A DNA stretch of 20,645 nucleotides from a virus. Positions 2,448 through 20,645 of the stretch are shown here, one piece after another (positions within the stretch are counted from its first letter, which is position 1; each line of letters begins with the position of its first letter). Position numbers and translations under genes: made by a program. The notes under the pieces are model-generated. The model worked only from the letters and a program-made list of their open reading frames with translations, did not search any database and was not told the DNA's origin. The stretch is from positions 1 to 20,645 of the IMG/VR virus record IMGVR_UViG_3300008448_000831; one strand, 5' to 3'.

Positions 2448-4205
2448 TTATATACTTTGAATCACAACCCAGTCATTATTATAGACTTCTACGCCATCTT
2501 CTGTCAATGTAAGTGACGAATCTTCGGCTATTTCAATTGACCTTGATGTATATAGGTTGTAATGCTCCGTTGCCTTTGTAGAGTCAAATGCGCTTTCATA
2601 TAAAGCAACATTCTGATAAAGCGATGGGGTAGCCCCATATAAAGAATAATTGAATTTAATATCTCCAGAAATTGTGCTTGTATAAACAATTACAACATGG
2701 TGTAACTGACCTAGGGTAAATACATTTGTAACATCTGTCTGAGATGTCTTATTAACTCCGTTTACATATATTGCTGAAATGTTTGTTTTGGCTACCGTCC
2801 CAGTGTTACGCCAAGAGTAGTTGGAGGCCGTAAAACCGTTTGTAGAGGTCGATGAGACCAGTCCTGAGTCTGTGAATGCCGTAGGGGTATAAAAGAACTC
2901 TACGGTCCTTACAGAGGCTCCTGTGGCTATTGTGAAGCCAGCGTCAGTAGAGCAACGAAGTCCATTTCTATAGTCTCTAGACAATATATCATAATTGGCG
3001 GGGCCAAGATGAAATTCATCTTCTGCATAAACAACTTTCTCGCCAAAGTTTTCAGAAGATACTGTCTTAGATTTATAAAATGAGAAATTAATGTATTTTA
3101 GTTTTGGTACATGCTTGCTTATATCTGAGCTAGATAAAGTAAATTTAATATATAGAGTTCCATCTGTGCTAAAGCTTGATTGTGAATAATCTGGAATTGC
3201 CTGCCCATTTGTGCATTCTGTATATGTAACTCCATCAAGGCTGGTTTCTACAGAGATTCCATTATCTCCGTTCCATTCCACCTTTGATGTTGTTAATCCA
3301 ATTTGTCCTGGAATCATAATATAATCTGTAAATTCTACAGACTTTGATCCACCTGCTGAATCTTTAATTAAAGATATAGACTCATCATCCTTGTTGTAGA
3401 AAATATCAGGAGTTACAAAATTAGTCCATGACTTACTAAATGGATATGAATATGAGAATTGTGATTTGAGATTTTCATCGCTTAGTGGGAAAAATATACC
3501 ATCATCTGGATATGCAATTTGAATTCCTTTTGGTGATCTTGAGTCAATAAAATGTGATAAAACCTTTTTGCTATCTAGGGCATATCTATATACTGCAGGA
3601 GCATCTATTACAAAAGAGTCTGATGAGCTTGTTGTTGGTCCCGCTGCCAATGTGAGCCCAGTATGTGTGATGCCTAAATCGGCGGGAACGACTGAAGTTG
3701 ATGAAACCAAATATCCATCATGATATAAATTCAATGTAGAGCCAGTGTATGTTCCAACAACATGATGAGATTTGGAAACATATGGAAGCGTATATCTTGC
3801 TTCCTTATTTCCAAATTGGATTAGGATGTCTCCGTTTTCATAAAATAAACCTACATTGTTTGTAGAGTCTCCAAATATCTTTGTCTCTGCATTTGTTGTT
3901 ATTTTAGGATAAAACCAAAGCTCAAATGAAAAGTCGTTGTCTAATGAATACTCATCTGCTAATCCGCCGCTGGCGTTAGTTCCAGTATAGTCTTTAGTGA
4001 TTGGAAATGTAATATACTTAGTATTTGTAATTAAAGAACCAATTGATCCGCCAGGAACTAAAGGTAAAAGACCTGTTGTAATGCCACCAGAATATGTTCC
4101 ATTATTGCCACATCCTGATATATCTGCGGCGGTGGTACCAGAAGTCTCATCCAATGCATAGAATGCTACTGGATAATCCTTTATTACTTTAAGTTGGTAT
4201 GACAT
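2448..4205 (-). CDS. Double LamG/concanavalin-like domain protein, probable fibre or surface adhesin
   Basis: At 585 residues, the protein has at least three beta-sandwich regions. Residues 10-222 form a LamG/LamGL-type domain (VAFYALDETSGTTAADISG at 13-31, FSFELWFYP at 92-100, HHVVGTYTGSTLNLYHDG at 147-164). Residues about 258-378 are a second beta-rich region (VETSLDGVTYTEC; LYIKFTLSS). Residues about 415-552 form another LamG-like domain (VRTVEFFYTP; LHHVVIVYTSTISGDIKFNY). The last 30 residues are an acidic tail ending VVIQSI. LamG domains commonly bind carbohydrate or protein ligands; a role in recognising host surface glycans is inferred from the family and from the neighbouring fibre genes. 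No catalytic motif is visible. The ATG at 4205 has no Shine-Dalgarno but lies 6 nt after a TACAAT hexamer. It is the last fibre-like gene before the head genes. Confidence 0.82.
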   Translation of the reverse strand: MSYQLKVIKDYPVAFYALDETSGTTAADISGCGNNGTYSGGITTGLLPLVPGGSIGSLITNTKYITFPITKDYTGTNASGGLADEYSLDNDFSFELWFYPKITTNAETKIFGDSTNNVGLFYENGDILIQFGNKEARYTLPYVSKSHHVVGTYTGSTLNLYHDGYLVSSTSVVPADLGITHTGLTLAAGPTTSSSDSFVIDAPAVYRYALDSKKVLSHFIDSRSPKGIQIAYPDDGIFFPLSDENLKSQFSYSYPFSKSWTNFVTPDIFYNKDDESISLIKDSAGGSKSVEFTDYIMIPGQIGLTTSKVEWNGDNGISVETSLDGVTYTECTNGQAIPDYSQSSFSTDGTLYIKFTLSSSDISKHVPKLKYINFSFYKSKTVSSENFGEKVVYAEDEFHLGPANYDILSRDYRNGLRCSTDAGFTIATGASVRTVEFFYTPTAFTDSGLVSSTSTNGFTASNYSWRNTGTVAKTNISAIYVNGVNKTSQTDVTNVFTLGQLHHVVIVYTSTISGDIKFNYSLYGATPSLYQNVALYESAFDSTKATEHYNLYTSRSIEIAEDSSLTLTEDGVEVYNNDWVVIQSI

Positions 4206-4211
4206 AATATT

Positions 4212-4241
4212 ATTGTACTATTAATCAATACTTAGTGTAAA
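4212..4241 (-). promoter_or_regulatory. Candidate promoter for the LamG gene, leaderless geometry
   Basis: TTTACA (4241-4236; 5/6 match to TTGACA), an 18-bp spacer and TACAAT (4217-4212; 5/6 match to TATAAT). The LamG ATG begins 6 nt after the -10 and lacks a Shine-Dalgarno. The -35 and spacer lie inside the 3' end of the preceding 54-residue gene. This is the third gene in the window with the same promoter-to-ATG arrangement. Confidence 0.45.
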
Positions 4242-4385
4242 TTGTTCTGCTTCTGGATTTAGATAGCGTTGATAGTCAGAGTTAGATGGATCTGCTGGCA
4301 CCCAAGAAACTGAACCATTTTCGTCTGTTCGTTTTAACATTTTTTCATTATTTTCATTTGTTATTTCTTCATAAATAAATGTCAT
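4221..4385 (-). CDS. Small 54-residue phage protein, function unknown
   Basis: Short ORF (MTFIYEEITNENNEKMLKRT at the start, ending FTLSID). It contains 'GSVSWVPADPSNSDYQRYL' (24-42), a W-P-x-D-x-x-N-x-D-Y-x-x-Y/W-L pattern that I recognise from small proteins encoded beside tail-fibre genes in aquatic phages. No function is established to my knowledge. The start overlaps the stop of the upstream fibre gene by 4 bp (ATGA), with a strong GGAGG about 7-8 nt upstream inside that gene's last codons, so translation is probably coupled. A chaperone or assembly role for a neighbouring fibre is only a guess. Confidence 0.8.
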   Translation of the reverse strand: MTFIYEEITNENNEKMLKRTDENGSVSWVPADPSNSDYQRYLNPEAEQFTLSID

Positions 4386-5530
4386 AGCTCTGCCTCCGCT
4401 ACATAATGGCCTCGTATAAGAGTTGCATTATTTGCTGTTCCACTTGCAGTGCCATTAAATCCAACAGAAAAGTTATTGTCTCCAATATTTGCAACTGTTG
4501 GGTTTGCATAAACTTCGTTTGTTCCTACCGTATATTCCCAAAAATTAGGGTTTGTGGCTGAGCCGTCACCTCTGTATAAAGTAATTGTTGGAGTGCTTCT
4601 TTTTGTTACTTTTAAAAATATAGTTGCAGATGAAATTCCAGTAGTTGAATTAAAATGATTTGCTACATTTACACGGTTAACTGTTGTATTTGTTTGTGGA
4701 GCAGTTGCTTGTGCATAAGATTTTTCATAATAACGTTGACACAGTGCCAACTCTTCTCCGATAGAGCTTGCTGCACGACTAAATGGTGTGGCTGTAGAGC
4801 CGAGCTCTAACTGTAATCCTGTTATTTCAAAATAATCATTGGCGCCAGCTGTTCCAGTTGGAGGATAGCCAAAATATATTCTTAATTGTTTTGCTGCCGT
4901 TGCAACTGTTCCAGTTAGAGTAAATCTTTGCCATGATGTTGTCAATGCAACAGAGCTTCCAGCTACTGCGCCTGTTCCAGTAAATGAAAATAATGCTTGA
5001 TCTGTTCCAGTTCCGTAGCCAACAACTGCGCTAAGACTTGAAGCTGAATAGTTTGCTCCAGCTCTAGCATAAAAAGAAAAAACAACTTCTTTGCCTACGA
5101 GTGGGGTTGAATTTACATTTTCAAATACCTGTGCAAAATAAAGTGTGCTTAGGTCTGAATTTCCAGAATTTCTTTGAAATCTAGCACAATATTGTACATG
5201 TGGAAGAGTGGTTAAATCAGAAGTAAGCTGACGAGAAATTGTTGCTGCTGATCCGCCAGACCCACCATAAACCCAACGATCTGCTGTATAGTTTCCTACA
5301 GTTCCGCCTGTCCCAGACTGAGAAATACTTGTTCCTCTTTGCCATATATCAAATCCACCATTAATTATTTTATTTTTTCCAGCTACATCATAATTAGTTT
5401 GTGTAACAACTCCTGAAACATCGGCGGCAGTTAAGGTATGTGTATGTGCTCCTACTCCAATTGGAATCCATGTATCTGTTTCTGTATCATATACATAAGC
5501 TGGTTTGCTAGTTGTTCCTAATGTGGCCAC
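4382..5530 (-). CDS. Tail fibre with carbohydrate-binding-like beta-sandwich
   Basis: A 382-residue protein. The N-terminal 40 residues (AYVYDTETDTWIPIGVGAHTH) resemble the leader that precedes many phage fibre proteins. Residues about 51-265 resemble the CBM-like domain of the 'KNKIINGGFDIWQRGTS ... YTADRWV ... LQLELGSTATPFSRA' type, which is common in tail fibres and often followed, as here, by 'GEELALCQRYYEKSY' (about 259-273). Residues 275-382 form a further beta-rich C-terminal tip. The likely role is glycan recognition at the cell surface. The start is GTG at 5530, directly after the TAA of the upstream small gene, with GGGAGG 8-9 nt upstream. The family type is confident; the ligand is unknown. 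Confidence 0.85.
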   Translation of the reverse strand: MATLGTTSKPAYVYDTETDTWIPIGVGAHTHTLTAADVSGVVTQTNYDVAGKNKIINGGFDIWQRGTSISQSGTGGTVGNYTADRWVYGGSGGSAATISRQLTSDLTTLPHVQYCARFQRNSGNSDLSTLYFAQVFENVNSTPLVGKEVVFSFYARAGANYSASSLSAVVGYGTGTDQALFSFTGTGAVAGSSVALTTSWQRFTLTGTVATAAKQLRIYFGYPPTGTAGANDYFEITGLQLELGSTATPFSRAASSIGEELALCQRYYEKSYAQATAPQTNTTVNRVNVANHFNSTTGISSATIFLKVTKRSTPTITLYRGDGSATNPNFWEYTVGTNEVYANPTVANIGDNNFSVGFNGTASGTANNATLIRGHYVAEAEL

Positions 5531-5746
5531 TTAGTTTCCTCCCAATAATAGCTGCGCTTCTTCTTGTGTAATTCCAAGTTTTTCTAGAAGTGCTTGTTTT
5601 GCAGCAACTTTTTGCTCTTCGGCTGCTTTTCGTATTTCTTGAGCAGCCTTATCTACTTCTAATTGTTCCAACTCAATATTATTCATTTCACGAATTTCAA
5701 TTTCATTTGTTTCAATATTATGAATTGTAATTGTTGGTATTGTCAT
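5531..5746 (-). CDS. Small acidic helical protein (EIREM ... LGITxEEAxLLL family)
   Basis: A 71-residue protein, mostly charged and predicted helical or coiled-coil in the middle (LEVDKAAQEIRKAAEEQKVAAKQ). The N-terminal block 'IHNIETNEIEIREMNN' and the C-terminal 'LLEKLGITQEEAQLLLGGN' are clearly related to the protein at 20011-20220. More distant versions of the C-terminal motif occur at 7607-7900 and 14491-14727. Such proteins often accompany fibre genes in aquatic phages; a chaperone or assembly role is plausible but unproven. The ATG overlaps the stop of the upstream fibre gene by 1 bp (TAATG), and the GGAG site comes from the upstream 'YGVK' codons. Confidence 0.82.
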   Translation of the reverse strand: MTIPTITIHNIETNEIEIREMNNIELEQLEVDKAAQEIRKAAEEQKVAAKQALLEKLGITQEEAQLLLGGN

Positions 5747-6519
5747 TATTTAACTCCATAAAGTATATATGTGCCTGAAAAGTTTCCTGATGTCATAAAC
5801 ATATTAATTTGAGTAATTGCGCTTGTTGTTCGTGCACCAAAACGCCATAAACCTAAACCAAAACCGCCAGCATTTTCGGTAAAGAAATTAACACAACTAC
5901 CGATTTTCCATGATGCGCTTGTGTAATCATTAAAAGTAAATGCAAAACTATTATTGCCGCCTGTTGTTGCATAGTTGCCAGGCCCAAATAGCCAACTTGT
6001 ATCTGATGCGTTTACTTGATATCCGCTATCGCTTGAGCGAGTTGCTTGATAAATGCTACCGCTGTCATTATTAATTCTAAAGTTTGGCACTTGGCCAGCA
6101 GAGGTTATATTATTATTTCTTATAACTAAATGAAGGTTTATGTAGTCTTGGCTGATAGATGTAATATTTACACTACTTGAAGATAATGAACCACTTGCTA
6201 AAACTGTCATTGAACCGCTTAATGGTGTAGCCCAAGCAGGGACTCCACCAGATACAGACAGAACCTGACCAGTAGAACCAATTCCTAATCTAGCTGGTGT
6301 ATTTGCACTAGAAGCATATATAATATCTCCTGTAGAAGATGTTAATGATTTTGGGATGTACTGTACATCTGCTGTAGTTCCATCTGTATCAAGCCATATC
6401 TGTCCGTCCACCGCCGTTGATGGCATAGATGCTTGTGCAGAATGGACGGGGTTATAAGGAAGAGCAGCAGATACTTCTTGCCATGCACTTCCATCCCATA
6501 CTCTTATCTTTTTACCCAT
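5746..6519 (-). CDS. Tail fibre with 'LYGVK' C-terminal jelly-type domain
   Basis: A 257-residue protein. The N-terminus MGKKIRVWDGSAWQEVS resembles fibre leaders. Residues 33-60 (STAVDGQIWLDTDG) are a 'GD/GQ-IW-D' connector also seen in the genes at 6519, 9242, 12726 and 16663. Residues 62-97 hold the fibre motif 'STGDIIYASSANTPARLGIG' followed by GQVLSVSGGVPAW. Residues about 101-257 are a divergent copy of the domain shared by eight genes in the window: SISQDYINLHLVIR, FNDYTSASWKIGS, LWRFGARTTSAITQINMF and the terminal YILYGVK. The likely role is host attachment. The ATG overlaps the preceding gene's stop by 1 bp. Confidence 0.84.
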   Translation of the reverse strand: MGKKIRVWDGSAWQEVSAALPYNPVHSAQASMPSTAVDGQIWLDTDGTTADVQYIPKSLTSSTGDIIYASSANTPARLGIGSTGQVLSVSGGVPAWATPLSGSMTVLASGSLSSSSVNITSISQDYINLHLVIRNNNITSAGQVPNFRINNDSGSIYQATRSSDSGYQVNASDTSWLFGPGNYATTGGNNSFAFTFNDYTSASWKIGSCVNFFTENAGGFGLGLWRFGARTTSAITQINMFMTSGNFSGTYILYGVK

Positions 6520-7577
6520 TATGCCACCGCCGTCTTTAGATATCTAACTATAACTAAGCCTGATCCACCATTCATTGATGTTGCTACGTTATTAATTCCA
6601 CCAGCACCGCCGCCAGTATTAGCAACTCCGTTTGCTGGAGATTGTGAGTTTCCTCTTCCATTTCCTCCACCGCCTGAGCCACCTGTGCCTCCAGTACCAT
6701 AACCATCATAACTAGCACCACCGCCACCGCCGCCAATAAAACCACTAACACCAGTGCTTGTTGCACTGTGCCATGATGAATAGGTGTTTGTGCCTGCGCC
6801 ACCATTTCCACCTGAGTTTCCTGAGTTATTTGAACCTACTGCTCCAGCGCCGCCTCCACCTGATCCAGCTCCAGAACCATCGCCGCCACCACCGTTGTTT
6901 CCTTGTCCTGCTGTTCCAGCTCCACCACCTCCACCTGTTCCAGTTGCTCCACCGCCTGAACCACCTGATCCACCAGCACCTGCATAAGTGCTACTAAATC
7001 CTCCACCAACTGCAGCGGTTAATGAAGCAAATTGTGAATTAGATCCTTTGTTTCCATTTGTGCTTGCTCCTACTCCAGCTCCTCCTGCACCAATAGTTAC
7101 CGTATGACCAGCTGCAGACAATGAATTAGAAGATAATAATAAAACACCTCCAGCTCCACCGCCGCCAGTTCCAAGGCCATTATTACCAGTGTGGTAGCCT
7201 CCAGAAGAACCGCCTCCAGCTACCAACAAGATGTCTGCGGAAAGGCTTCCTCCAGAAACAGTCAAAGTTCCACTTGATGTAAAAGTTCTATAATAATAAG
7301 TTGAATCAGAAGTTAATGTTCCACCCGTAACCGTTGGAACTCCAGCAACTCCTGCTACCGTCCAACCAACTGCATTATACTGATATAAATTTTTTAAAGT
7401 TGTATCATAATATAAATCTCCAACAGTTGGAGATGCTGGTCTATTTTCAGTCGTTCCACGACCACTATGACCATTTGCGGCTGTAGCGTGTGTAGAAATT
7501 GCAGAAGAAACCTCAGTATCAGTAGCCATGCTTGATGATGCCGTTAACATACTTGCTAGATCTCTAATTCTACTCAT
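6519..7577 (-). CDS. Tail fibre with Gly-rich C-terminal domain
   Basis: A 352-residue protein. The N-terminus MSRIRDLASML matches the M(S/T)(R/K)xR(D/N)xA leader of the genes at 16663 and 17977 and is inferred to be a virion-anchoring or fibre-start peptide. Residues 38-76 (SGRGTTENRPASPTVGDLYY and on to YNAVGWTVAG) are the 'RP-SP-GDLYYDT' connector. From about 83 follows the Gly-rich domain: 'YYYRTFTSSGTLTV', 'ADILLVAGGGSSGG', long Gly/Ser/Ala blocks, 'GTAGQGNNGGGGDG', 'GTNTYSSW', a variable stretch, 'NTGGGAGG' and the closing 'GGSGLVIVRYLKTAVA'. Among the five Gly-rich genes only this one has the domain directly after the connector, without jelly or FN3 modules. A GGGTGA site precedes the ATG. 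The plus-strand Pro-rich ORFs opposite it are shadows. Confidence 0.85.
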   Translation of the reverse strand: MSRIRDLASMLTASSSMATDTEVSSAISTHATAANGHSGRGTTENRPASPTVGDLYYDTTLKNLYQYNAVGWTVAGVAGVPTVTGGTLTSDSTYYYRTFTSSGTLTVSGGSLSADILLVAGGGSSGGYHTGNNGLGTGGGGAGGVLLLSSNSLSAAGHTVTIGAGGAGVGASTNGNKGSNSQFASLTAAVGGGFSSTYAGAGGSGGSGGGATGTGGGGGAGTAGQGNNGGGGDGSGAGSGGGGAGAVGSNNSGNSGGNGGAGTNTYSSWHSATSTGVSGFIGGGGGGASYDGYGTGGTGGSGGGGNGRGNSQSPANGVANTGGGAGGINNVATSMNGGSGLVIVRYLKTAVA

Positions 7578-7606
7578 TTTTCACCCATTCTTTTTATATT
7601 ATTTAA

Positions 7607-7900
7607 TTATAAACCTAATAAAATTCTAAGGTCTTCTACAGATAGACCAGTGCTCTGAAGTTTTAACTGACGAATTTCATCTGCAGTTGGTTTTGGCAAA
7701 CCTTCTTGGCCCTTGCCGTTTGGCGGGAATGGTGCTGAATCATCAACTTGAGAAGCTACTGCAAGTTCCGCCCAAGATGTTGCTTCTTCAACTGAATCAA
7801 AAGAGTCTCCGTTTGGATAAGATGGCTGCAACCAAAATGGTTCTGGGTTAATGTCGTCATAAATTTTAACCGTATTATTTTCATCTATTTCGTATCTCAT
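7607..7900 (-). CDS. Small phage protein, 97 residues, unknown function
   Basis: The protein starts MRYEIDENNTVKIYDDINPEPFW. It contains 'PSYPNGDSFDSVEEATSWAE' (about 27-46) and a linker 'FPPNGKGQEGLPKPTADE', and ends 'STGLSVEDLRILLGL', a loose match to the C-terminal motif of the other small proteins. I recognise the N-terminal half as a type frequent near tail genes of aquatic phages; its function is not established to my knowledge. The ATG at 7900 was chosen over an in-frame ATG at 7951, because AAGGGAG lies 7 nt upstream of 7900 and the longer start would overlap the propeller gene by about 50 bp. It precedes the Gly-rich fibre by 29 bp. Confidence 0.8.
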   Translation of the reverse strand: MRYEIDENNTVKIYDDINPEPFWLQPSYPNGDSFDSVEEATSWAELAVASQVDDSAPFPPNGKGQEGLPKPTADEIRQLKLQSTGLSVEDLRILLGL

Positions 7901-7902
7901 TA

Positions 7903-8940
7903 TTATGCTCCCTTTGCGTAATTTCTTGCTTGATTTGCTTGAATTGTCCAAGCATAAATATTTGGTGATGTTTTTGATGTCCAGGTAATTCCATCTGGAG
8001 ATGTTGTAAATACAGATGTTGTGCCAGCATTATATTGAACCTTTGCAAATCCCACATTGTTGCCATATGTAATTAGACCTTCTGTATTTCCAATATTTAT
8101 ATGTGTTCTTTGTGTCCAGCTTGTACCATTAGTTGATGATGCTCCAACAGTTCCTCCGCCTGATGCAACATAAGTGCCAGCTTCAAAACCATAACATTGC
8201 GTTCCGAACCAATATCCAGTTGTTGGCATAGTTCCTAATGTAAAGGATGTTCCATTAGTTGTATACCATAAATTATTTGTTGAACCATAGTTACCAGTAA
8301 ATACTAAAGTTGTTCCATTATATGCTCCGACGCCAGCTGCTCCAAAATAAGGAGATGGTGAACCAGAACCATTTGAAGAAAATGAACTACCAAGAGTTGT
8401 TCCATAATTTAAATTAGGGTCATTGTGTTGCATTATCATATAGTTGCCATTTACAAATCCACCAGCAAGTTGCACATTTGCATTAGATACAGTTGATCCA
8501 GCCCAAGTAACTCCGTCCGTAGAATAAGCATAACGATTGCTATCATACATAGTTCCAATAAGCCATTGTGCTTTTGATGGGGTATAAAAAACAAAAGTTG
8601 ATTTGAATGATGTGTAAGGTGCTGTTCTTGAAGTCCAAGATGTTCCGTTGGTTGATGTGTAAAAGTTGTTCTGTTGGTATGGAGCATAAACCCATAGGCC
8701 ATTACCATAACCAAGATACTCACCGCTTGCTTGAATGTTAGCACCAGATGCAACTGGCAAGTTAAACTGTGTCCAAGTAGAACCATTATCATAAGAAATA
8801 ATTCCACCAGTTTGTCCAGTAGAACCACTTCCTATTGCAATTAAAGTATTAGGAACGCTTTCTGGATTTCCAGCAAGGAAGGACGTATAAACAGTTTTGC
8901 TTTTAGATCCACCTGCATTAGAAAGCTTATAAACTGACAC
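7903..8940 (-). CDS. Asp-box (BNR-like) beta-propeller protein, probably seven-bladed
   Basis: A 345-residue protein. Six Asp-box motifs (S/T-x-D/N-G-x-T/S-W/F) are visible: SYDNGSTW (49), STNGTSW (96), YSTDGVTW (139), TTNGTSF (227), SSTNGTSW (268) and TSPDGITW (313). A degenerate one (LGSSFSSN) lies at about 183. The spacing is 41-46 residues throughout, which predicts seven blades. Asp-box propellers occur in sialidases and other glycan-active proteins, but the sialidase FRIP motif and Arg triad are not apparent, so a binding or structural role is more likely than catalysis. The start is GTG, overlapping the previous TAG by 1 bp (TAGTG). Residues 8-23 (NAGGSKSKTVYTSFLA) may be the attachment segment. 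Confidence 0.82.
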   Translation of the reverse strand: MSVYKLSNAGGSKSKTVYTSFLAGNPESVPNTLIAIGSGSTGQTGGIISYDNGSTWTQFNLPVASGANIQASGEYLGYGNGLWVYAPYQQNNFYTSTNGTSWTSRTAPYTSFKSTFVFYTPSKAQWLIGTMYDSNRYAYSTDGVTWAGSTVSNANVQLAGGFVNGNYMIMQHNDPNLNYGTTLGSSFSSNGSGSPSPYFGAAGVGAYNGTTLVFTGNYGSTNNLWYTTNGTSFTLGTMPTTGYWFGTQCYGFEAGTYVASGGGTVGASSTNGTSWTQRTHINIGNTEGLITYGNNVGFAKVQYNAGTTSVFTTSPDGITWTSKTSPNIYAWTIQANQARNYAKGA

Positions 8941-9242
8941 TATGAAATCTCCACCCCACCAATATGGAAGTTTACTGTTGTTGCAGATGCTGAGCCTTTA
9001 ATTGTTTGAGTAGTGGCAAGTGGCTGCTTTACTTGGATAACAGTTGAGTCATTTGCTCCAACAGTTACAGTATTAGCAAAAACTACATCGTTAAAACTAA
9101 TTGTAAATGTAGCTGATGTTGATGCGGTGTTAGCCACAACAATATCTGTAACTATAGTTGTAGTTGAAGATGGAGTAGTGTAAAGTGTTGTAGAGCTTGT
9201 TGATGCTGCTCCTCTAAATAGTATTTTTGCTGTATTTGGCAT
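8940..9242 (-). CDS. Small beta-rich virion-surface-like protein (100 residues)
   Basis: The sequence begins MPNTAKILFRGAASTSSTTLY and consists of alternating Thr/Ser/Val strands: TTTIVTDIVVANTASTSATFTI, FANTVTVGANDSTVIQV, LATTQTIKGSASATTVNFHI and a final GGVEIS. This pattern predicts a small beta-sandwich. I recognise the 'AKxLFRGAA...LYTTP...IVVANT...ASATTVNFHI(S/G)GVE' type as a common phage protein beside tail genes, possibly a decoration or baseplate-associated protein; no precise function is known to me. It overlaps both neighbours by 1 bp and has a G-rich site (GGGGGG) from the upstream 'MGGY' codons 7 nt before the ATG. It looks like a complete single domain. Confidence 0.8.
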   Translation of the reverse strand: MPNTAKILFRGAASTSSTTLYTTPSSTTTIVTDIVVANTASTSATFTISFNDVVFANTVTVGANDSTVIQVKQPLATTQTIKGSASATTVNFHIGGVEIS

Positions 9243-14131: not shown

Positions 14132-14479
14132 TTATTCTGGTATTACGAGTTCTTGCCAATTCAAATCTGCTTCAACCCAATTATATAACTTTCCATCTGT
14201 AGGCATTGGTGTTGGAGCTTCCCATAGACATGTCTCCTCATTTAGGATCCATGAATCAAATGGCTTCTCTGGAATAAATGCATCTCGTACACGATCAAAC
14301 TTCATTCCAATTCCAGCAAAATTCTTTCTCATGTTTCCATTATAGGATGTTTGTACCCATGTACCACCAAGTCCAAGATCATCTGCAAGAAATTCTTGTC
14401 CTCTATGTTCTTGGTCATTTCCTACAACAAGTACTCTTAGTACAATATCGTTTTCATCTACTTCTGCAAAATGTGCCAT
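14132..14479 (-). CDS. AHFAEVDEN-type small phage protein (115 residues)
   Basis: The protein starts MAHFAEVDENDIVLRVLVVGND and continues with 'GLGGTWVQTSYNGNMRKNFAG' (36-56), GMKFDRVRDAFIPEKPFDSWILNEETCLWEAP in the second half and a C-terminal 'KLYNWVEADLNWQELVIPE'. I recognise this as a widespread type in cyanophages and other aquatic phages, usually near tail-fibre or neck genes; no function is firmly known to me. The aromatic-rich C-terminal half suggests a compact beta-domain. The ATG at 14479 has AAGGAG 8 nt upstream, overlapping the stop of the preceding small gene, so the two are coupled. It is the first larger gene after the candidate promoter at 14758-14786. Confidence 0.82.
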   Translation of the reverse strand: MAHFAEVDENDIVLRVLVVGNDQEHRGQEFLADDLGLGGTWVQTSYNGNMRKNFAGIGMKFDRVRDAFIPEKPFDSWILNEETCLWEAPTPMPTDGKLYNWVEADLNWQELVIPE

Positions 14480-14490
14480 TTTTTTTCTCC

Positions 14491-14727
14491 TTATACTACT
14501 AGTGTTTCTGCTTCTTCAGCAGTTAACGGTTGTCCAGCAATTAGCTTAGCTTTAGCTGATGCTTTTAGTTCCGCCTTCGCTTCTTCTGCTGCAATACGAG
14601 CTGCTTCTGCTTCTGCAAATGCTGCAGAATCTGCTTCACGCTGTGCGATTTCTTCGGCGGTCAACGGAACAATAGACTGTACTCCTGTTGAGCAGTCTAC
14701 AATAACTTTTGTTAATTCTTCTGACAT
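14491..14727 (-). CDS. Small Ala/Glu-rich helical protein (78 residues)
   Basis: The N-terminus MSEELTKVIVDCSTGVQSIVPLTAEEIAQRE is followed by a long charged helix rich in Ala and Glu (about 30-63) and a C-terminal 'KLIAGQPLTAEEAETLVV'. The layout (beta-type start, long helix, terminal L-T-x-E-E-A-x-x-L) parallels the small proteins at 20011 and 5531, though identity is low. The likely structure is a single coiled-coil helix. Function is unknown; as with its relatives, an assembly or chaperone role for neighbouring fibres is a guess. AAGGAGG lies 6 nt upstream of the ATG, the strongest Shine-Dalgarno in the window, and a promoter-like element lies 31 nt upstream. Confidence 0.78.
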   Translation of the reverse strand: MSEELTKVIVDCSTGVQSIVPLTAEEIAQREADSAAFAEAEAARIAAEEAKAELKASAKAKLIAGQPLTAEEAETLVV

Positions 14728-14792: not shown

Positions 14793-16139
14793 TTATATTG
14801 AATATCTAATAATTACTAAACCTGAACCACCATTACCTGATGTTCCTGTATCGCTTGCGCCACCTGAACCTGAACCAGTATTTGCAGTTGCACTTGCAGA
14901 AGCGGTTGCTGAGCCAGCGGTTGCGCCTCCTGAACCTGCTGAACCTATTGTAGCGTAACTACCACCACCACCAGCACCACCACCACCAGCAATATAACCA
15001 CTAACACCTAATCCAGTTACAGTCAATGCAGCAGATAAAGAACCCCAGTTTGTTACTGAGTTTGTTCCAGCACCACCATTACCACCAGTAGATCCTGAAC
15101 CTGATGTACCAGCACCTCCAGCACCTCCACCACCACCAGCAGGATAATATGGAGCAGAATTTGAACCTCCACCGCCAGCATTTCCTTGACCTGATGTAGC
15201 AGCACCGCCACTTACTCTTGTTCCGCCACCTGAGCCACCATCTGCATTAAGGGTTGCTGTTCCTCTACCTCCACCTACGGCAGCAGTTAAACTGCCAAAT
15301 TGTGAGTTAGAGCCACTATTGCCTTCTTGTCTTTTGGTTGCAAGACCAGCGCCGCCTGCTCCAATAGTTGCTGTGTAAGCAGTGCCGTTAGCTAATGACT
15401 GTGATGCAAATGCAATAACACCACCTGCACCTCCGCCTCCTGAAACATCTGCACCACCAGATCCACCACCTGCTACTACAAGTACGTCTGCAGAAAAAGT
15501 TTTTGCAGGAGTAAATGTTCCTGATGACAAGAAAGCGTGGTACCAGTATGTTCCATCGGTTTCAATAATATCGCCACCTGTTGCGTATGGGGCTATAGTA
15601 GGAGTATCTCCAAGTTTTGCTACTCCGTATAGCGAGAAAGATGAGTATTGTTGAAAAACTCTATTAAAACTTGTTCCTTGATCGAGTGCGCTTAAAGTTA
15701 TAGATGTAATTGCTGCAGTGTTTGCTAATTGACCTGACATTAATGTAATAAATCCATCGCTAGTGCTATTTGTTTCAACTACATTATCGATAGAAACTGT
15801 TTTAAAGTTAGAACTTGTATAATTTGGAATATAAACCTCTGTATTGTCCCATTGACTATTAGTAGATGTAGAACCACTAAGCGCATAAAGCAAATTAGAT
15901 ACACCAGCATAAGAAGCTAGTGTGCTTGTTCCGCTACCTCCTAAAAATTTTTGTTGGTAATTAGTAGTAGAACTATTAAACTGAATTGCTGTATATCCTA
16001 CATTGGTTTGATTAGATTTTACTGACATCTTTAAAACTAAATCGGTATATCCAGATTGTGGAATATTTGAAAATACTACACTAGACGCACCTGCTGCGCC
16101 TACTACAATTTTTTCTAATAAAATATAATTTGCTGTCAT
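14793..16139 (-). CDS. Two-domain adhesin: jelly-type domain + Gly-rich domain (third copy)
   Basis: A 448-residue protein. N-terminal domain (1-175): 'SSVVFSNIPQSGYTDLVLKM', 'TEVYIPNYTSSNFKTVSIDN', 'MSGQLANTAAITSITLSA', 'FSLYGVAKLG'. The linker 'TPTIAPYATGGDIIETDG' leads to 'YWYHAFLSSGTFTP', 'ADVLVVAGGGSGGAD', 'ATSGQGNAGGGG', 'GTNSVTNW', 'VSGYIAGGGGAGGGG', an Ala/Ser/Thr-rich stretch where the other copies are Gly-rich (GSATASASATANTGSG), and the closing 'GGSGLVIIRYSI'. It lacks a fibre-type leader. The ATG at 16139 has only a weak upstream GGCGG from the end of the preceding gene, so reinitiation after that gene is likely. Confidence 0.85.
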   Translation of the reverse strand: MTANYILLEKIVVGAAGASSVVFSNIPQSGYTDLVLKMSVKSNQTNVGYTAIQFNSSTTNYQQKFLGGSGTSTLASYAGVSNLLYALSGSTSTNSQWDNTEVYIPNYTSSNFKTVSIDNVVETNSTSDGFITLMSGQLANTAAITSITLSALDQGTSFNRVFQQYSSFSLYGVAKLGDTPTIAPYATGGDIIETDGTYWYHAFLSSGTFTPAKTFSADVLVVAGGGSGGADVSGGGGAGGVIAFASQSLANGTAYTATIGAGGAGLATKRQEGNSGSNSQFGSLTAAVGGGRGTATLNADGGSGGGTRVSGGAATSGQGNAGGGGSNSAPYYPAGGGGGAGGAGTSGSGSTGGNGGAGTNSVTNWGSLSAALTVTGLGVSGYIAGGGGAGGGGSYATIGSAGSGGATAGSATASASATANTGSGSGGASDTGTSGNGGSGLVIIRYSI

Positions 16140-16141: not shown

Positions 16142-16660
16142 TTATGCCGCCTTAATTCCATATAAAGAAAATGTTGATCCTGTTGTAAAATTAACAGCAG
16201 AAGAATTACTTAATCTTATTGAAGTAATTGCTGCGGTACTTCTCCATAGACCAGCATTTGCACTCATACCTGAATAAGAAGTATTAACTCTTGCTAATAC
16301 TGTTTTATTAATAGCTGTATTTGTATATTGCATAACATTTATAATAGCATTATTTGGTGCAGTAGAAGAACTTGTTGGATATAAAGATGTATAGTAACCA
16401 AAATCAATTCCACTAATTGAGGCTTGGCGTACTCCATACGGAGCGACACCATTTCCTTCTAAAACCACTACTGAGTAATTAGATGCTGTATCTGTATTAA
16501 ACAATATTCTCAAATTAGGAGTACCACTAGCAGAAAACAAATTACTGCCAACAACTACTAAATCAGTATAAGTTTGAGGAATAGAAGTAAAGTTTACACT
16601 AAGTGCTGGCGAACTAAGTGTTGAAGTTGCAATTTCTTCATATGTATTTCCTGCTGGCAT
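16142..16660 (-). CDS. Stand-alone 'LYGIK' jelly-type domain protein
   Basis: At 172 residues this gene is essentially only the shared domain: 'YEEIATSTLSSPALSVNFTS' (about 7-26), IPQTYTDLVVVGSN, LRILFNTDTASNYSVVVLEG, INVMQYTNTAINKTVLARV, AGLWRSTAAITSIRLSN and the end STFSLYGIKAA. It defines the minimal unit of the domain found in seven other genes here, so it is the best reference for structure prediction. It has no leader peptide, connector or spacer modules. It may be a tip subunit bound to the fibre encoded just upstream, or a free-standing head-fibre-like protein. The upstream gene's last codons (YGIKGR-stop) supply GGGGAG 8 nt before its ATG. I know no named family with certainty. Confidence 0.84.
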   Translation of the reverse strand: MPAGNTYEEIATSTLSSPALSVNFTSIPQTYTDLVVVGSNLFSASGTPNLRILFNTDTASNYSVVVLEGNGVAPYGVRQASISGIDFGYYTSLYPTSSSTAPNNAIINVMQYTNTAINKTVLARVNTSYSGMSANAGLWRSTAAITSIRLSNSSAVNFTTGSTFSLYGIKAA

Positions 16661-16662: not shown

Positions 16663-17964
16663 TTATCTCCCCTTTATTCCGTACAATGCAACAGTTGAGC
16701 CAGAAGCCCAGTTGCCAGTAGCCATTGTTAAATCAATACGATTGATTGCAGATGTTGACATCCACAAACCAGATTCAAAATCAAGATACCCTACTGAATT
16801 AGTATCATAGCCAGATAAGCTTCTTGAAATTTTATTTTTATTAGTATTAGTGTACTCAAAAACGTCTAATATTGATGCTGATACATTGCTACCTGAATAT
16901 AACAAACCAGAGTATCCTGCAAATGTTATTGCATTTCTGCCTGTTTGTGAACCGCCTCCAGTTGAAGATCCTAAGCTGGTCATTCTGCGGTTAGAATAAT
17001 TTGTTCCTGTGTCAGAGTTAAAGGTCATCCAGCAAGCATATCCATTATTTCCACCGACAACTCTTAACTGTAAATGAGTATAAGTCTGAGGAATAGAAGT
17101 AAAAGAAAGAACAGAAGATGAGCCATTAGCTGTTACGGTAGCAATAGAGTCATAGGCGCCAATTGGTGCCCATGCTTGAGGTGTAACGGAATTGCTTGCA
17201 GAACTTGCTGCTGATGTACCATTTGCATTTGTTGCAGTAACTGTAAACGTATATGCGGTTTCATTTGTTAAACCTGTTATTGTAATAGGCGATGATGATC
17301 CAGAAGCTGTGATACTTCCTGGAGAAGAGGTGACGGTATAACCTGTAATTGATGATCCGCCAGTTGCCCCTGCGGTAAACGGAACTGAAGCTTCTGCGTT
17401 TCCAGAAGTTACAGTTCCAACTGTTGGTGCCTGTGGAACAGTTGTTGCAGTGACTCCTGATGAAGCGGAACTTGCAGAAGATGTTCCATAATTATTTGTA
17501 GCAGTAGCAGTATATGTATATTGTGTGCTAGATTGTAAACCAGTTACAACAAGTGGTGATGTTGATCCTGTTGATGTATAAGAACCTGGTGAGGATGTTA
17601 CTGTATAAGAAGTAGGTAATCCTCCTGTTCCCGCCGAAAATGCAACTGAAGCAGACCCATTGTTGTATGCACGAGATGTGCCAACATTCGTAGCAACTAA
17701 AGAAGTTGGTGCGTTAGGAATAACTCCTATTTGTGACCATCCTAAAGAAGTATATGTTTCTAAATTTCCTGTTTGAGTATTATTATAAATATCACCAATT
17801 GCTGGAGATGCTGGCCTATTTGAAGTATTTCCTCTTGCTGGAAGTGCTGCTATTGCAGCATCTCTATTAGAAACTTCTGTAGCAATAAGAGCAGCCGTTT
17901 CTGCATCCGTCGCCAAAGCTGTGGCGGTGGACAGAACGTTAGCTACATCTCTTGCTCTAGTCAT
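16663..17964 (-). CDS. Fibre with two FN3 domains and C-terminal jelly-type domain
   Basis: A 433-residue protein. The leader MTRARDVANVLSTATALATD belongs to the M(S/T)(R/K)xR(D/N)xA type, followed by the connector 'ARGNTSNRPASPAIGDIYNN' (43-62) and LETYTSLGWSQIG. FN3-like domains lie at about 84-174 (VVTGLQSSTQYTYTATATNN) and 177-262 (TITGLTNETAYTFTVTATNA). The shared C-terminal domain (268-431) shows SFTSIPQTYTHLQLRV, MTFNSDTGTNYSNRR, LDVFEYTNTNKNKISRSLSG, SGLWMSTSAINRIDL and VALYGIKGR. The same plan occurs at 12726-14114 with a different leader. AGGGAG precedes the ATG at 17964. Likely a full-length fibre able to anchor to the virion and bind the host. Confidence 0.86.
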   Translation of the reverse strand: MTRARDVANVLSTATALATDAETAALIATEVSNRDAAIAALPARGNTSNRPASPAIGDIYNNTQTGNLETYTSLGWSQIGVIPNAPTSLVATNVGTSRAYNNGSASVAFSAGTGGLPTSYTVTSSPGSYTSTGSTSPLVVTGLQSSTQYTYTATATNNYGTSSASSASSGVTATTVPQAPTVGTVTSGNAEASVPFTAGATGGSSITGYTVTSSPGSITASGSSSPITITGLTNETAYTFTVTATNANGTSAASSASNSVTPQAWAPIGAYDSIATVTANGSSSVLSFTSIPQTYTHLQLRVVGGNNGYACWMTFNSDTGTNYSNRRMTSLGSSTGGGSQTGRNAITFAGYSGLLYSGSNVSASILDVFEYTNTNKNKISRSLSGYDTNSVGYLDFESGLWMSTSAINRIDLTMATGNWASGSTVALYGIKGR

Positions 17965-17976
17965 TATTACTCCCTA

Positions 17977-20001
17977 TTACGTATATCTTACTATAATTAT
18001 TCCTGAGCCGCCATTACCTGCTTGGCTACCGTTTGCTGGTGCTCCGCCGCCACTGCCAGTATTTGTTATACCAGAAGATGAAGTCAATGTTGCTTGAGAT
18101 GTAGATAGTCTTCCGCCGTCTCCGCCTCCACCTGAACCACCAGTTCCGCCAAATGCTAATGAGTATCCGTCAAGTCCGCCGCCACCTCCGCCGCCTGCAA
18201 TTCTACCACCAGATGTTGCTGTTGACCATCCAGATACTCCAGACATCAGAGAAGAAATTGCTGATAGCCATGTTGAATATGAATTTGTTCCAGCTCCTCC
18301 AGCGTTTGTATTTGCAGTTGATGATGCATTACCTCCAACTGCGCCAGATCCTCCACCGCCACCTCCAGAATAATAGGGATCTGAAGCAAATCCTTGTCCG
18401 CCGTTAAAGCCTTGTGATCCAGTTCCAACTGCAGATGGATTATTGTATGAAGCTCCTCCACCTGAACCTCCATTTTTTCCTGCTGCGGTTGAATCTGCTG
18501 AACCTAATCTTGCACCACCAGCTCCTCCACCATTTGCTGTATTTGAACCAAATACGCTGTTAGAACCATTTTGTGCAGTTGTTCCGCCGTTTTGTCCAGA
18601 CAAACCTGTTGCACCAGCTCCAATAGTTGCAGTAACACCAACACCATTTGATACAGAAAGTGATGAACTATAAACTAATCCTCCAGCGCCTGCGCCACCA
18701 CCACCTGCGCCTGCACCGCCAGCGCCACCACCAGCTATATTTAGAACTTCAACAGATGTAAGTCCAGATGTTGCTGGAGTAAATGTTCCGCTTGAAGAAA
18801 ATACATGATAGGTATGAGATCCAGATCTAATAATAGATCCACCATTTGCTTTAGGCATTGTTAACGAAGATGAAGCAGAACTTGCAGAAGAAGTTCCTAT
18901 TGCATTAGTTGCAGTTACTGTAAATGTGTAAGATGTTCCAGCTGTAAGGCCACTAATTGCAATTGGGGAAGAAGAACCTGTTCCAGTAATATTGCCTGGA
19001 GATGAAGTTACTGTATATCCAGTAATAGCTGAATTTCCATTGCTTGCTGGTGCGGTAAATGCTACAGAAGCAGCGGTTGCAGAAGAAGAAGATACTGCTC
19101 CAATTGTTGGAGCGCCTGGAACTGTTAGGGTCTGCATAGTAAATGTTCTATTTGTTGAGTTTCCTCCAGAATCGGTTGCTGCAATTATAATGCTATAGCT
19201 TGCAGCATTATCTGCTGTAGTTCCACTAATAACACCAGTAGATCCATTTAACGAAATACTTGTAGGGAATGCCCCAGATACAACAGAATAACTTATTGTT
19301 CCTGAATCTGGATCAGTTGCTTGAATTGTTTGTGAGAAAGCTGAGTTTTTTGTTGCATTGTTTAAGGTTGATGAAGTAACCCATGTTGGATTTGATCCAG
19401 CAGTTACACCGTTGGTTAAAGTTGCAGACAATGTTGTAGTTGGATTTGTAACAATTAAATCATATGGTGCATCACCAGTTGCAAATGTATCTGGACGGGT
19501 AACAATAATTGAAGTTGCAGATCCTCTAACTGTTGATTTTGGATTTACTAATGTAGAGTCATCAGACTTTCTAAATCTAACAGTTACATCAGTTGGAAAA
19601 TTTGTTCCAGTAATAGTAGCTGTGTCATCTATAATAGGCAATGATGACGGAGAAACTGTTGTAATTGTTGGAGGAGCCCAATATGCATCTGTTTTAGACT
19701 CTAACCCCTGTGCTTCTGAAAGGAATGTAAACACAATTGCGTCACTTGAATTAGCATTGTTAGTTGTAACATATTTAAATGCATCAGATGCTGTTATTGC
19801 TTTTGCCCCGCCAGTTACATATCCAACATTTGCTCCTGCTGTTGATCCAAGGTATATCTCCAGATCATTATCTGTATTTACTGATTCTATTGAGTAAGTC
19901 CCAGGCGGGAATTCACGAGAAAGAGTAGCAGTTTTAGATCCTCCAGTTAATGTGACAACTGTAAAAGAATCAGTATTTGCTATATTTCTAGCCTTACTCA
20001 T
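17977..20001 (-). CDS. Large modular fibre: IPT/TIG, Ig-like, FN3 and Gly-rich domains
   Basis: At 674 residues this is the longest gene here. Leader MSKARNIAN, then a beta-rich N-terminal domain (10-105) with 'GTYSIESVNTDNDLEIYLGS'. Residues 110-200 are IPT/TIG-like (PTITTVSPSSLPIIDDTATI, then TGTNFPTDVTVRF). Residues 205-290 resemble a putative Ig/cadherin-like He_PIG domain (DPDSGTISYSVVSGAFPTSI; TGVISGTTADNAASYSIIIA). Residues 294-382 are an FN3-like domain (AISGLTAGTSYTFTVTATNA). The Gly-rich domain starts at 385: 'HTYHVFSSSGTFTP', 'VEVLNIAGGGAGG', 'GTNSYSTW', a long variable insert, 'RIAGGGGGGGLDGYS', 'ITNTGSGGG', 'GGSGIIIVRYT'. It lacks the usual RP-SP-GD connector. AAGGAG precedes the ATG. 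Confidence 0.86.
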   Translation of the reverse strand: MSKARNIANTDSFTVVTLTGGSKTATLSREFPPGTYSIESVNTDNDLEIYLGSTAGANVGYVTGGAKAITASDAFKYVTTNNANSSDAIVFTFLSEAQGLESKTDAYWAPPTITTVSPSSLPIIDDTATITGTNFPTDVTVRFRKSDDSTLVNPKSTVRGSATSIIVTRPDTFATGDAPYDLIVTNPTTTLSATLTNGVTAGSNPTWVTSSTLNNATKNSAFSQTIQATDPDSGTISYSVVSGAFPTSISLNGSTGVISGTTADNAASYSIIIAATDSGGNSTNRTFTMQTLTVPGAPTIGAVSSSSATAASVAFTAPASNGNSAITGYTVTSSPGNITGTGSSSPIAISGLTAGTSYTFTVTATNAIGTSSASSASSSLTMPKANGGSIIRSGSHTYHVFSSSGTFTPATSGLTSVEVLNIAGGGAGGAGAGGGGAGAGGLVYSSSLSVSNGVGVTATIGAGATGLSGQNGGTTAQNGSNSVFGSNTANGGGAGGARLGSADSTAAGKNGGSGGGASYNNPSAVGTGSQGFNGGQGFASDPYYSGGGGGGSGAVGGNASSTANTNAGGAGTNSYSTWLSAISSLMSGVSGWSTATSGGRIAGGGGGGGLDGYSLAFGGTGGSGGGGDGGRLSTSQATLTSSSGITNTGSGGGAPANGSQAGNGGSGIIIVRYT

Positions 20002-20010
20002 TATATCTCC

Positions 20011-20220
20011 TTAAGATAGAAGCAGTCTTGCTTCTTCTTCTGTGATTCCAAGTCTTTCTAGAAGTGCCGCTTTTGCTAATGCATCTGCTTCTACTTTTTC
20101 TTCATATTCTTGAATAGCAGCCTGATTATCCAGCCAAGATTGATACTCTTCGTCAGTCATTTCACGAATAATAATTTCATCAGTTTCTGAATTATGCTCT
20201 TTAATTTGTGGTTTAGTCAT
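20011..20220 (-). CDS. Small acidic helical protein (IIREM ... LGITEEEARLLL family)
   Basis: A 69-residue protein. 'IKEHNSETDEIIIREMTDEE' (5-24), a charged helix with a central Trp, and a C-terminal 'LLERLGITEEEARLLLS'. It is the closest relative of the protein at 5531-5746, sharing the order of motifs and both end blocks. The helix-turn-helix-like C-terminus is a type I associate with small proteins next to aquatic-phage fibre genes; the function is not established to my knowledge. The ATG overlaps the stop of the upstream truncated fibre by 1 bp (TAATG) and uses a GGAG from its terminal 'YGVN' codons. Confidence 0.82.
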   Translation of the reverse strand: MTKPQIKEHNSETDEIIIREMTDEEYQSWLDNQAAIQEYEEKVEADALAKAALLERLGITEEEARLLLS

Positions 20221-20645
20221 TAGTTCACTCCATATATTCTAATTGTTCCGCCGTCATAATTACCTGTTGAAACTACCATTGAAAATGTAGTAACAGCAGC
20301 GGTTCCAGTTACTATCTGACCATTGAAAAGAATAGGTGAGCCACCTTCGTTAATCCATCTTTGATTAAAAGTTCCAACTTTTGGATTTACAGCATCTGTG
20401 TAATCATAAATATGAATAGCAGTTTTATTTGTTCCTGAACCATAATTGCCACCATAGTTTTGTGCGTTACCAACTGTTCCTCCTGTGGCATAATAATTAA
20501 CGCCAGTTGCTGCTGCTGCTTGCGTAGCATTGAAAACAAGGTTAGTTGAATTGCATTGGTAGTTAATTGTTGGATTAAAGTTAGAAGTATCAATACCTAA
20601 AATTTCAATATATAGGTGCTTATAGCTTTGACTAATATTGGATAC
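20220..20645 (-). CDS. C-terminal end of a fibre with the jelly-type domain (5' end outside window)
   Basis: An open frame enters from the right edge and ends at TAA (20222-20220). The visible 141 residues read SNISQSYKHLYIEILGIDTS near the edge, then YQCNSTNLVFNAT, TGVNYYATGGTVGN, AIHIYDYTDAVNPKVGTFNQ, ITGTAAVTTFSMVVSTGNYD-like strands and the end GGTIRIYGVN. This is a divergent copy of the shared domain: 'SQSYKHLYIEI' corresponds to 'PQTYTDLVV', and 'IYGVN' to 'LYGIK'. The copy most like it is in 5746-6519. A shorter ORF in another frame over the same bases is a shadow. Leader and shaft cannot be seen. Confidence 0.78.
   Translation of the reverse strand, partial: VSNISQSYKHLYIEILGIDTSNFNPTINYQCNSTNLVFNATQAAAATGVNYYATGGTVGNAQNYGGNYGSGTNKTAIHIYDYTDAVNPKVGTFNQRWINEGGSPILFNGQIVTGTAAVTTFSMVVSTGNYDGGTIRIYGVN

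Follow-up and report, generated by a model that had tools for sequence, protein, structure and literature searches.

Most tailed phages carry one to a few receptor-binding proteins. The original prediction for the DNA studied here took this as its background, which holds in general; however, multi-gene islands of tens of kb have already been described as host recognition clusters (HRC) in pelagimyophages and cyanomyophages (PMC7029224). The HRC phages are T4-like, and their island, 44.6 kb on average, lies between VrlC and gp14 (PMC7029224). Near-identical phages also differ in their host-recognition genes: this holds for marine phages with metaviromic islands (PMC3909814) and for cultured phages of Nanopelagicales, whose fibre island measures 5 kb (PMC10202952). 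As far as these two reports describe them, the gene sets are far smaller than the one presented below, and the cassette logic of leader, tip and small ORF is not resolved; the marine islands are also described as holding XkdW-like and tail-fibre-assembly genes. Several receptor-binding proteins per phage, with modular exchange, are found in the Ackermannviridae, where at most four spikes form a known branched complex (PMC11414711, PMC8432352).

Here we analysed a viral window of 20,645 nucleotides, positions 1 to 20,645 of IMG/VR record IMGVR_UViG_3300008448_000831. We consider it likely that the adhesin gene block at 2448-20645 is a host-recognition island which evolves by the swap of cassettes made of a tip and a small ORF. 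Like the HRC (PMC7029224), the block is large, non-syntenic and equipped with tail fibres; it keeps one position among the structural genes, and its surroundings are conserved. Glycosyltransferase-type genes are a further shared trait, although here in relatives only: the island of relative G001 holds Glyco_transf_25, a methyltransferase and an APS kinase, none of which was seen in the window. Unlike the HRC, the island here is bordered by the ribonucleotide reductase (RNR) side and by LamG-p113-portal, with p113 and a phrog_12 portal as flank; in relatives its length is 21-32 kb.

Organization of the adhesin block

All genes across 2448-20645 of the window are on the minus strand, with a coding density of 98%, which bears out the predicted co-directional block. 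The intergenic gaps range from -1 to 65 nt, except that 176 nt separate the LamG gene (g1) from the gene preceding it. Twelve fibre or adhesin genes had been counted, and this number needs correction: the block contains 14 large fibre/adhesin-like ORFs (g1-g14), five short ORFs (s1, s2, s4, s5, s6) and s3, which encodes a beta-domain protein of 100 aa. The features are as follows.

443..2032, minus strand: portal, conserved flank (phrog_12, E 1.5e-56)
2043..2384, minus strand: p113, conserved flank (phrog_9394; 92 relatives)
2448..4205, minus strand: g1, LamG/ConA-like core protein of 585 aa, left border of the island (Laminin_G_3, E 2.5e-14)
4382..5530, minus strand: g2, fibre with CBM-like C-terminal domain (phrog_4492 tail fiber, 3.9e-54; NF048003 head spike fibre domain, 3.8e-10, over cut-off)
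5531..5746, minus strand: s1, 71-aa ORF, acidic and coiled-coil-like, candidate fibre chaperone (grouped with s5 and s6)
5746..6519, minus strand: g3, WDGSAW leader and jelly domain
6519..7577, minus strand: g4, RDLAS leader, RP-SP-GD connector and Gly-rich tip (PF21722, E 3.2e-12)
7607..7900, minus strand: s2, short ORF travelling with the g5 tip (in L183/L184, one 84%-identical stretch together with g5)
7903..8940, minus strand: g5, Asp-box repeat (propeller-like) adhesin
8940..9242, minus strand: s3, 100-aa beta-domain protein (phrog_1276, E 3e-6; 17 relatives)
9242..9910, minus strand: g6, FKVK leader (first 40 aa 48-78% identical to relatives) and 85-aa fibre module
9960..11336, minus strand: g7, jelly domain and Gly-rich tip, without leader
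11336..12721, minus strand: g8, jelly domain and Gly-rich tip, without leader
12726..14114, minus strand: g9, FKVK leader, connector, two FN3 and jelly domain (fn3, E 4.3e-20)
14132..14479, minus strand: s4, 115-aa ORF, putative fibre chaperone (phrog_7759)
14491..14727, minus strand: s5, 78-aa ORF of the s1/s6 family (in L149, transferred along with s4 and the tip of g10)
14793..16139, minus strand: g10, jelly domain and Gly-rich tip, without leader (PF21722, E 3e-19; model weakly like Pam3 fibre 7ypx)
16142..16660, minus strand: g11, jelly domain alone (AlphaFold2 pLDDT 89.7, pTM 0.86)
16663..17964, minus strand: g12, RD leader, two FN3 and jelly domain (fn3, E 6.9e-10)
17977..20001, minus strand: g13, RN leader, Ig (He_PIG), FN3 and Gly-rich tip, visibly chimeric
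20011..20220, minus strand: s6, 69-aa ORF of the s1/s5 family
20220..20645, minus strand: g14, jelly domain (profile search), cut by the window edge

The block of about 18 kb is real. As the right edge of the window falls inside g14 and the corresponding stretch measures 21-32 kb in five long relatives, the block exceeds the length first given. At its other end, g1 had been placed among the adhesins. It lies beside p113-portal in nearly all portal relatives with a flank and is homologous to the gene at the same place in the Streptomyces phages BillNye and StarPlatinum (HMM E 3e-56 and 5e-35). Being a conserved core gene, g1 marks the edge of the block and stands outside the variable repertoire. 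A sigma-70-like promoter signal at 2507-2478 is inseparable from protein conservation.

The ORFs of the block are all intact and mostly preceded by a ribosome-binding site of their own. Purifying selection acts on those tested, with a dN/dS of 0.06-0.33, which indicates that the block genes are kept functional and rules out pseudogene decay. A chance origin of the block is no concern, given profile E-values down to 4e-20 and this selection.

Domains of the predicted adhesins

The limited parts list that had been proposed was largely recovered, with profile matches to Laminin_G_3, Gly_rich_2 (PF21722, over cut-off in g4, g7, g8, g10 and g13), fn3 (g9, g12, g13) and He_PIG (g13), and with eight copies of the jelly-roll domain found by profile search (g3, g7, g8, g9, g10, g11, g12, g14). 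Of the suggested spacers, IPT had no profile match in g13. For the suggested Asp-box propeller, g5 shows five Asp-box-like motifs; the gene matched nothing in Pfam, NCBIfam or PDB. Several genes share the same leader types; g7, g8, g10 and g11 have no leader.

The jelly-roll adhesin domain is widespread and has no Pfam match. PDB sequence searches with the jelly profile, the Gly tip, LamG, g2, g5 and s4 gave nothing useful. The best PDB match of the g11 jelly model is galectin-8 (E 3.4e-4), and superposition (VIA) gave Z 7.0 and rmsd 2.7 with BC2L-C and Z 7.5 with galectin-9, a range (Z 7-8) that possibly reflects a common beta-sandwich arrangement. Among viral models, 123 match at E<=1e-3; the named ones are mostly uncharacterised or fibre-like phage proteins. 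The jelly domain may be a lectin-like tip with a galectin/TNF-like fold.

The Gly-rich tips recall the fibre gp24 of phage Pam3 with its chaperone gp25 (PMC9608196), a fibre that has been likened to the T-even-type Gly-rich adhesin gp38 of phage S16 (PMC9608196). A beta-sandwich followed by a Gly-rich tip, GGGGxGG-type runs and a separately encoded chaperone or, here, candidate chaperone are common to both. Pam3 fibre was second in the Foldseek list for the Gly-tip model (prob 1.00, E 9.9e-3); this AlphaFold2 model of g10 has a pLDDT of 58, and its Gly part is too poor to show a polyglycine sandwich fold with variable distal loops. The two systems differ in that sequence similarity is undetectable in PDB, fold similarity is weak and the small ORFs here are shorter.

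Lineage and host

The portal is 57-60% identical to that of Stanwilliamsviridae, and RNR, LamG, p113-like gene, portal and protease follow in order; the RNR of the freshwater relatives was named from sequence, without profile search. BillNye and StarPlatinum, both cultured Stanwilliamsviridae, share the order RNR ... LamG - p113-like - portal - protease - capsid - tape measure. They have only LamG between RNR/endolysin and the p113-like gene, plus endonuclease VII in StarPlatinum, and no fibre array. Judged by portal and local gene order, the phage appears to be related to Stanwilliamsviridae. A search with the T4 portal gave no match, and as its control was equally silent, it is uninformative. 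The only match of the host scan is a contig of 3 kb that was binned together with a Cytophagaceae genome. This bin conflicts with WhiB, found in two relatives; as host phylum, Actinobacteria are tentatively favoured.

Turnover of the island

The p113 gene and the portal are kept in nearly all 80 portal loci, and the fibre DNA is not. Of six pairs of loci with portal regions that are 98-99% identical, four (L006/L007, L006/L009, L007/L008 and L007/L009) share no DNA 2.5-5 kb upstream of the portal. Relatives G001 and G003 are 93-97% identical on either side of the island, whereas ~13-17 kb of the island is unaligned except for a 326-bp stretch. In four contigs, identity with the window ends at 4214-4218, immediately upstream of the first codon of LamG; for G001/G003 the break falls within that gene. 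The island turns over faster than the neighbouring core genes diverge. Such near-complete local replacement in near-identical phages differs from the gradual divergence favoured for HRC (PMC7029224).

An abrupt end of identity at 4218, in a window that is a single metagenomic contig, could also mean that the assembly fused a real portal end with fibre genes of another phage. We regard such an artefact as extremely improbable: the arrangement of backbone fibres, island, LamG, p113 and portal occurs independently in several long contigs, the relatives differ mutually at the same place, and this portal occurs, along with relatives of the island genes of the window, in the records from which L159 and L265 come. 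The same island flanks are present in G001, G003, G007 and G008, and the near flank in nearly all portal relatives.

Within the block, best matches switch from segment to segment. The g13 product is a two-parent chimera, residues 12-292 matching L159 and residues 293-673 matching L265. Between G001_49 and G006_62, identity in 40-aa bins is 98, 85 and then 8%, a constant leader with a changed tip; G003_57 and G006_55 give 100, 60 and 30. Comparison of related contigs, which had been put forward as a check, supports the view that modules are swapped between strains.

Under an alternative reading, most products would coat the head, as spikes or as Ig/FN3/lectin decorations, and keep the phage close to glycans or particles, while the choice of host would fall to a tail-tip module of its own, located downstream of the tape measure. 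The island does lie directly upstream of the LamG-portal head genes, G001 and G003 have tail-tip-type genes downstream of their tape measure, g2 matches the head spike fibre domain, and some PHROG matches of flanking or relative genes are "head decoration" or "Hoc-like". On the other hand, the conserved backbone genes upstream of the island match Mtd_N and collagen tail-fibre families, with a weak L-shaped tail fibre assembly match, and a constant leader with a variable tip at 98-99% core identity is the pattern of receptor-binding proteins. We therefore think this reading possible but unlikely as a whole. Some island proteins may still sit on the head, as the family match of g2 suggests. A literature search on head spikes of gene transfer agents found nothing for the wording used.

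Small ORFs associated with the tips

The s1/s5/s6 family has 53 members, mostly directly behind a fibre tip or s4. Of the 73 placed members of the s4 family, 56 lie directly behind a Gly-tip gene, against 47 of 1206 for other small ORFs behind a jelly or Gly gene; the loci behind these s4/s5 counts were partly selected for carrying Gly tips. Tips and small ORFs move as units, g5 with s2 (L183/L184) and the g10 tip with s5 and s4 (L149). Although s1, s2, s4, s5 and s6 match no chaperone-type family in Pfam or NCBIfam, they are encoded right after a fibre and inherited with it, as are the tail fibre assembly chaperones Tfa and XkdW. They probably help to fold or cap the adjoining tip, and two of their families may be new fibre chaperones. 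In the fibre and cognate chaperone module of Alteromonas phages A5/V22, tip and small partner are likewise transferred together between unrelated phages (PMC10579305). Those phages have one main fibre and chaperone, whereas here there are many cassettes with a putative partner function.

Switching mechanisms

Switchable attachment had been offered as one role of the many tips, and it gains no support. No reverse transcriptase was found in 14 relatives (fragments, the genome of the window itself being incomplete), no resolvase or serine invertase in 15 records including the window, and no inverted repeats of at least 40 nt within the window. A diversity-generating retroelement is rejected for lack of a reverse transcriptase in those relatives, and an invertible fibre switch of the Mu/Gin type for lack of a resolvase in those records and of long inverted repeats in the window. 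In another reading, the block would be a reservoir: the phage would produce or assemble just one fibre or a few at any moment, and stored tips would reach the expressed position when paralogous leaders recombine. This would suit the several genes with the same leader types and the different tips behind the same leaders in different phages. It appears very unlikely, however, since the searches above found none of these elements and every ORF is intact, mostly with its own ribosome-binding site, in DNA that is almost entirely coding and under purifying selection where tested.

Proposed model

All the above is best accommodated by the host-recognition island. The fibre and adhesin genes would have been inserted as a late array, probably polycistronic, with the LamG-portal head genes on one side and, on the other, a conserved fibre backbone that in relatives comprises a collagen fibre and an Mtd_N fibre. 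Their products would bind receptors and be assembled on the tail, several fibre types to a virion. A cassette would consist of an N-terminal leader for docking (absent from the leaderless genes), optional FN3/Ig spacers and a C-terminal tip, which may be a lectin-like jelly domain, a Gly-rich tip of the gp38/Pam3 type, an Asp-box propeller or a CBM. One or two small ORFs would often complete it. Recombination would swap tip and small ORF behind the constant leader, so that near-identical phages hold differing tip sets and could follow changing cell-surface receptors. Unlike the Ackermannviridae spikes, these fibres have no known docking scheme.

Many tips on one virion, whether for broad attachment or as heavy decoration, would agree with the tight gene packing and the purifying selection. 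A stronger version, that each virion shows a dozen or more adhesins, with same-leader fibres competing for docking sites and tip combinations differing within one burst, seems doubtful to us; if true, such virions would be a combinatorial answer to varied hosts that needs no switching enzyme.

Comparable islands have been described from other phages, and what is new is the lineage, which is little studied and has kinship with Streptomyces phages. T4-like phages are not alone in having host-recognition islands of tens of kb, as these freshwater relatives of Stanwilliamsviridae show. The locus also shows how such islands change: leaders remain, and tips leave with a small partner ORF. This would make the island a system suited to measuring phage-host receptor co-evolution in lakes.

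Organization and content of the fibre-gene block

The window comprises the whole of an IMG/VR contig fragment, in which the following features are referred to by position.

20645–2448, minus strand: run of fibre genes (the block)
4382–5530, minus strand: g2, fibre gene
4206–4381: 176-nt gap before g1, the sole long intergenic gap of the block, coinciding with the end of identity to the related loci L006–L009
2507–2478, minus strand: sigma-70 promoter match (12 of 12) lying within the 3′-terminal part of g1 and preceding the p113-portal genes

From right to left on the minus strand, the order of large fibre-like genes (g) and small ORFs (s) is g14 (cut), s6, g13, g12, g11, g10, s5, s4, g9, g8, g7, g6, s3, g5, s2, g4, g3, s1, g2 and g1 (LamG), followed by p113, portal and protease. 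Where the original prediction counted twelve genes, there are 14 large fibre-like genes, one gene for a 100-aa beta-domain (s3) and five short ORFs in the block. The block is 98% coding, with intergenic gaps of −1 to 65 nt apart from the one before g1, and a GGAG-like ribosome site is present at most of its genes; it appears to be a single late operon. Promoter-like sites occur no more often than in shuffled sequence and terminator-like sites (19 versus 11.8 expected) lie mostly within genes, so neither clearly divides the block. Most relatives show a match similar to the sigma-70 site at 2507–2478, although this site overlaps a coding motif that is itself conserved.

Pfam domains were found in g1 (Laminin_G_3), in g4, g7, g8, g10 and g13 (Gly_rich_2), and in g9, g12 and g13 (fn3), the last also carrying He_PIG. 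PHROGs groups g2 with tail fibres (phrog_4492) and matches p113 and the portal to known phage families. Five Asp-box-like motifs are present in g5. A profile seeded from the window copies of the jelly-type domain (~170 aa), which has no Pfam match, and iterated over 11,604 ORFs of the collected loci found 144 such domains, eight of them in the window. The AlphaFold2 model of g11, which is the jelly domain alone, is all beta (pLDDT 89.7, pTM 0.86). Its top Foldseek match in the PDB is galectin-8 (E 3.4e-4), and VIA-align gives Z 7–8 against galectins, fructosidase beta-sandwich domains and TNF-like lectins (BC2L-C: Z 7.0, rmsd 2.7, 108 residues), values too low to exclude that the arrangement is simply a common one. 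Against a viral library, 123 models matched at E≤1e-3; most of those with a name are uncharacterised phage proteins or proteins labelled FN3, Gly-rich, collagen or side-tail-fibre. Densely packed series of jelly-domain genes are also present in other freshwater phages that lack this portal (L107, L135, L182 and similar loci). For g10, the Gly-rich tip was modelled poorly (pLDDT 58), and the Pam3 fibre (7ypx) ranks second among the PDB matches to this poor model (prob 1.00, E 9.9e-3). The Pam3 fibre is reported to have a Gly-rich end, proposed as the receptor-binding tip, and to be assembled with a separate chaperone (PMC9608196).

A conserved border and a variable interior

For the flank comparison, we collected 80 loci that carry a relative of the portal. 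Nearly all keep p113 and the portal, and in those with enough flank a g1 homologue (28–92% identity) adjoins this pair. The portal is 57–60% identical to those of the cultured Streptomyces phages BillNye and StarPlatinum (Stanwilliamsviridae), where the order is RNR, endolysin, endonuclease VII (StarPlatinum only), one hypothetical protein, a 107-aa protein and the portal. An HMM comparison shows this hypothetical protein to be a homologue of g1 (E 3e-56 and 5e-35). At this place, five long contigs of the freshwater phages carry 21–32 kb with 21–38 predicted genes (g1 included), and the upstream end of this region retains a collagen fibre and an Mtd_N-bearing fibre. Therefore g1, which the original prediction had left undistinguished from the fibre genes, belongs to the core proteins, with the fibres forming an island on its upstream side.

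Close relatives differ sharply within this island. L006–L009, the loci nearest to the window over the core and LamG genes, align at 90–91% up to 4214–4218, where the alignment ends. Their portal regions are 98–99% identical to one another, while the next 2.5 kb have nothing in common in four of the six pairs (L006/L008 share 18%, L008/L009 89%). The longer records G001 and G003 are 93–97% identical on both flanks and unalignable between them except for a 326-bp stretch. The break might be read as an assembly artefact in the window, but the relatives all differ from one another at the same place, which counts against this. Identity between the window and G001/G003 stops inside the LamG gene; therefore the border itself recombines or diverges.

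Exchange of leaders, tips and cassettes

Proteins of the relatives that share a leader (N-terminal part) often have 85–100% identity in the first 40 aa, dropping to 20–35% or less beyond that point, as in G001_49 versus G006_62 (98, 85, 8 and 32% along the sequence) and G003_57 versus G006_55 (100, 60 and 30%). One leader is fused to a tip in one phage and is a separate short gene in another. Along each window gene the nearest match shifts: g12 is closest to L149 in its leader, to L008/L163/L088 in FN3 and to L182/L114 in the jelly domain, and g13 matches L159 over residues 12–292 and L265 over residues 293–673. Larger units are also shared: L183/L184 carry g5 (from residue 13) with s2 in a single stretch of 84% identity (7602–8855), and a segment comprising the Gly tip of g10, s5, s4 and the beginning of the leader that follows is shared with L149 (14053–15210, 77%). 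Relatives of g10 are found in other phages too, and 16 of 21 contigs with g10-type tips or other island genes are without this portal, some of these contigs being fragments. Values of dN/dS for g5 (0.15), s2 (0.06), s4 (0.28), s5 (0.30) and parts of g12 (0.30) and g10 (0.33) indicate that the modules are kept functional; those of core genes are 0.03–0.11.

The small ORFs accompany the tips. s1, s5 and s6 form one family of 53 members, and the s4 family (phrog_7759) has 77 members of the right size; of the 73 placed cases, 56 lie immediately after a Gly-tip gene. Within the s1/s5/s6 family, the preceding gene is s4 for 26 members and a jelly or Gly gene for 17, compared with a jelly or Gly gene for 47 of the 1206 remaining small ORFs of the same loci; these figures are indicative, as the loci were partly picked for Gly tips and the background contains spurious ORFs. 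The small ORFs match no known chaperone profile in Pfam or NCBIfam. From their adjacency and co-transfer with tips, the likeliest reading is that they encode putative chaperones or caps, a role shown in Alteromonas phage V22 (PMC10579305).

We found no reverse transcriptase among 14 relatives, no serine recombinase in 15 records and no long inverted repeats within the window. A DGR- or invertase-type switch is therefore unsupported, and with it the switchable attachment suggested originally.

Location, host and related islands

Both head and tail locations are arguable for the fibres: a head location is suggested by g2, which scores above the NF048003 threshold (a head spike fibre domain named for gene transfer agents), and a tail location by the conserved backbone fibres. 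Two relatives encode WhiB (G007 11305–11478, G014 45132–45305), and this favours an actinobacterial host; the binning of a 3-kb portal contig (L264) with a Cytophagaceae MAG is a weak pointer to that family.

The island of G001 contains Glyco_transf_25, methyltransferase, GH130-like, APS kinase and sulfotransferase-like genes amid its fibres (L083:15868–19319, L084:2327–4778), possibly for glycan or sulfate decoration of the fibres or of the host surface. Another related island (G008 74032–75552, L098) carries four tandem paralogous genes of ~130 aa with a KSIQRG... motif.

Host-recognition clusters with a mean of 44.6 kb, containing fibres and glycosyltransferases, are described in pelagimyophages (PMC7029224). 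Two further reports describe metaviromic islands enriched in recognition genes in marine phages (PMC3909814) and a 5-kb fibre island in cultured Nanopelagicales phages (PMC10202952). The best-supported reading of the present block is a host-recognition island that evolves via cassette exchange. Such an island is of a known kind; what is new is its lineage and the detailed make-up of the exchange units.
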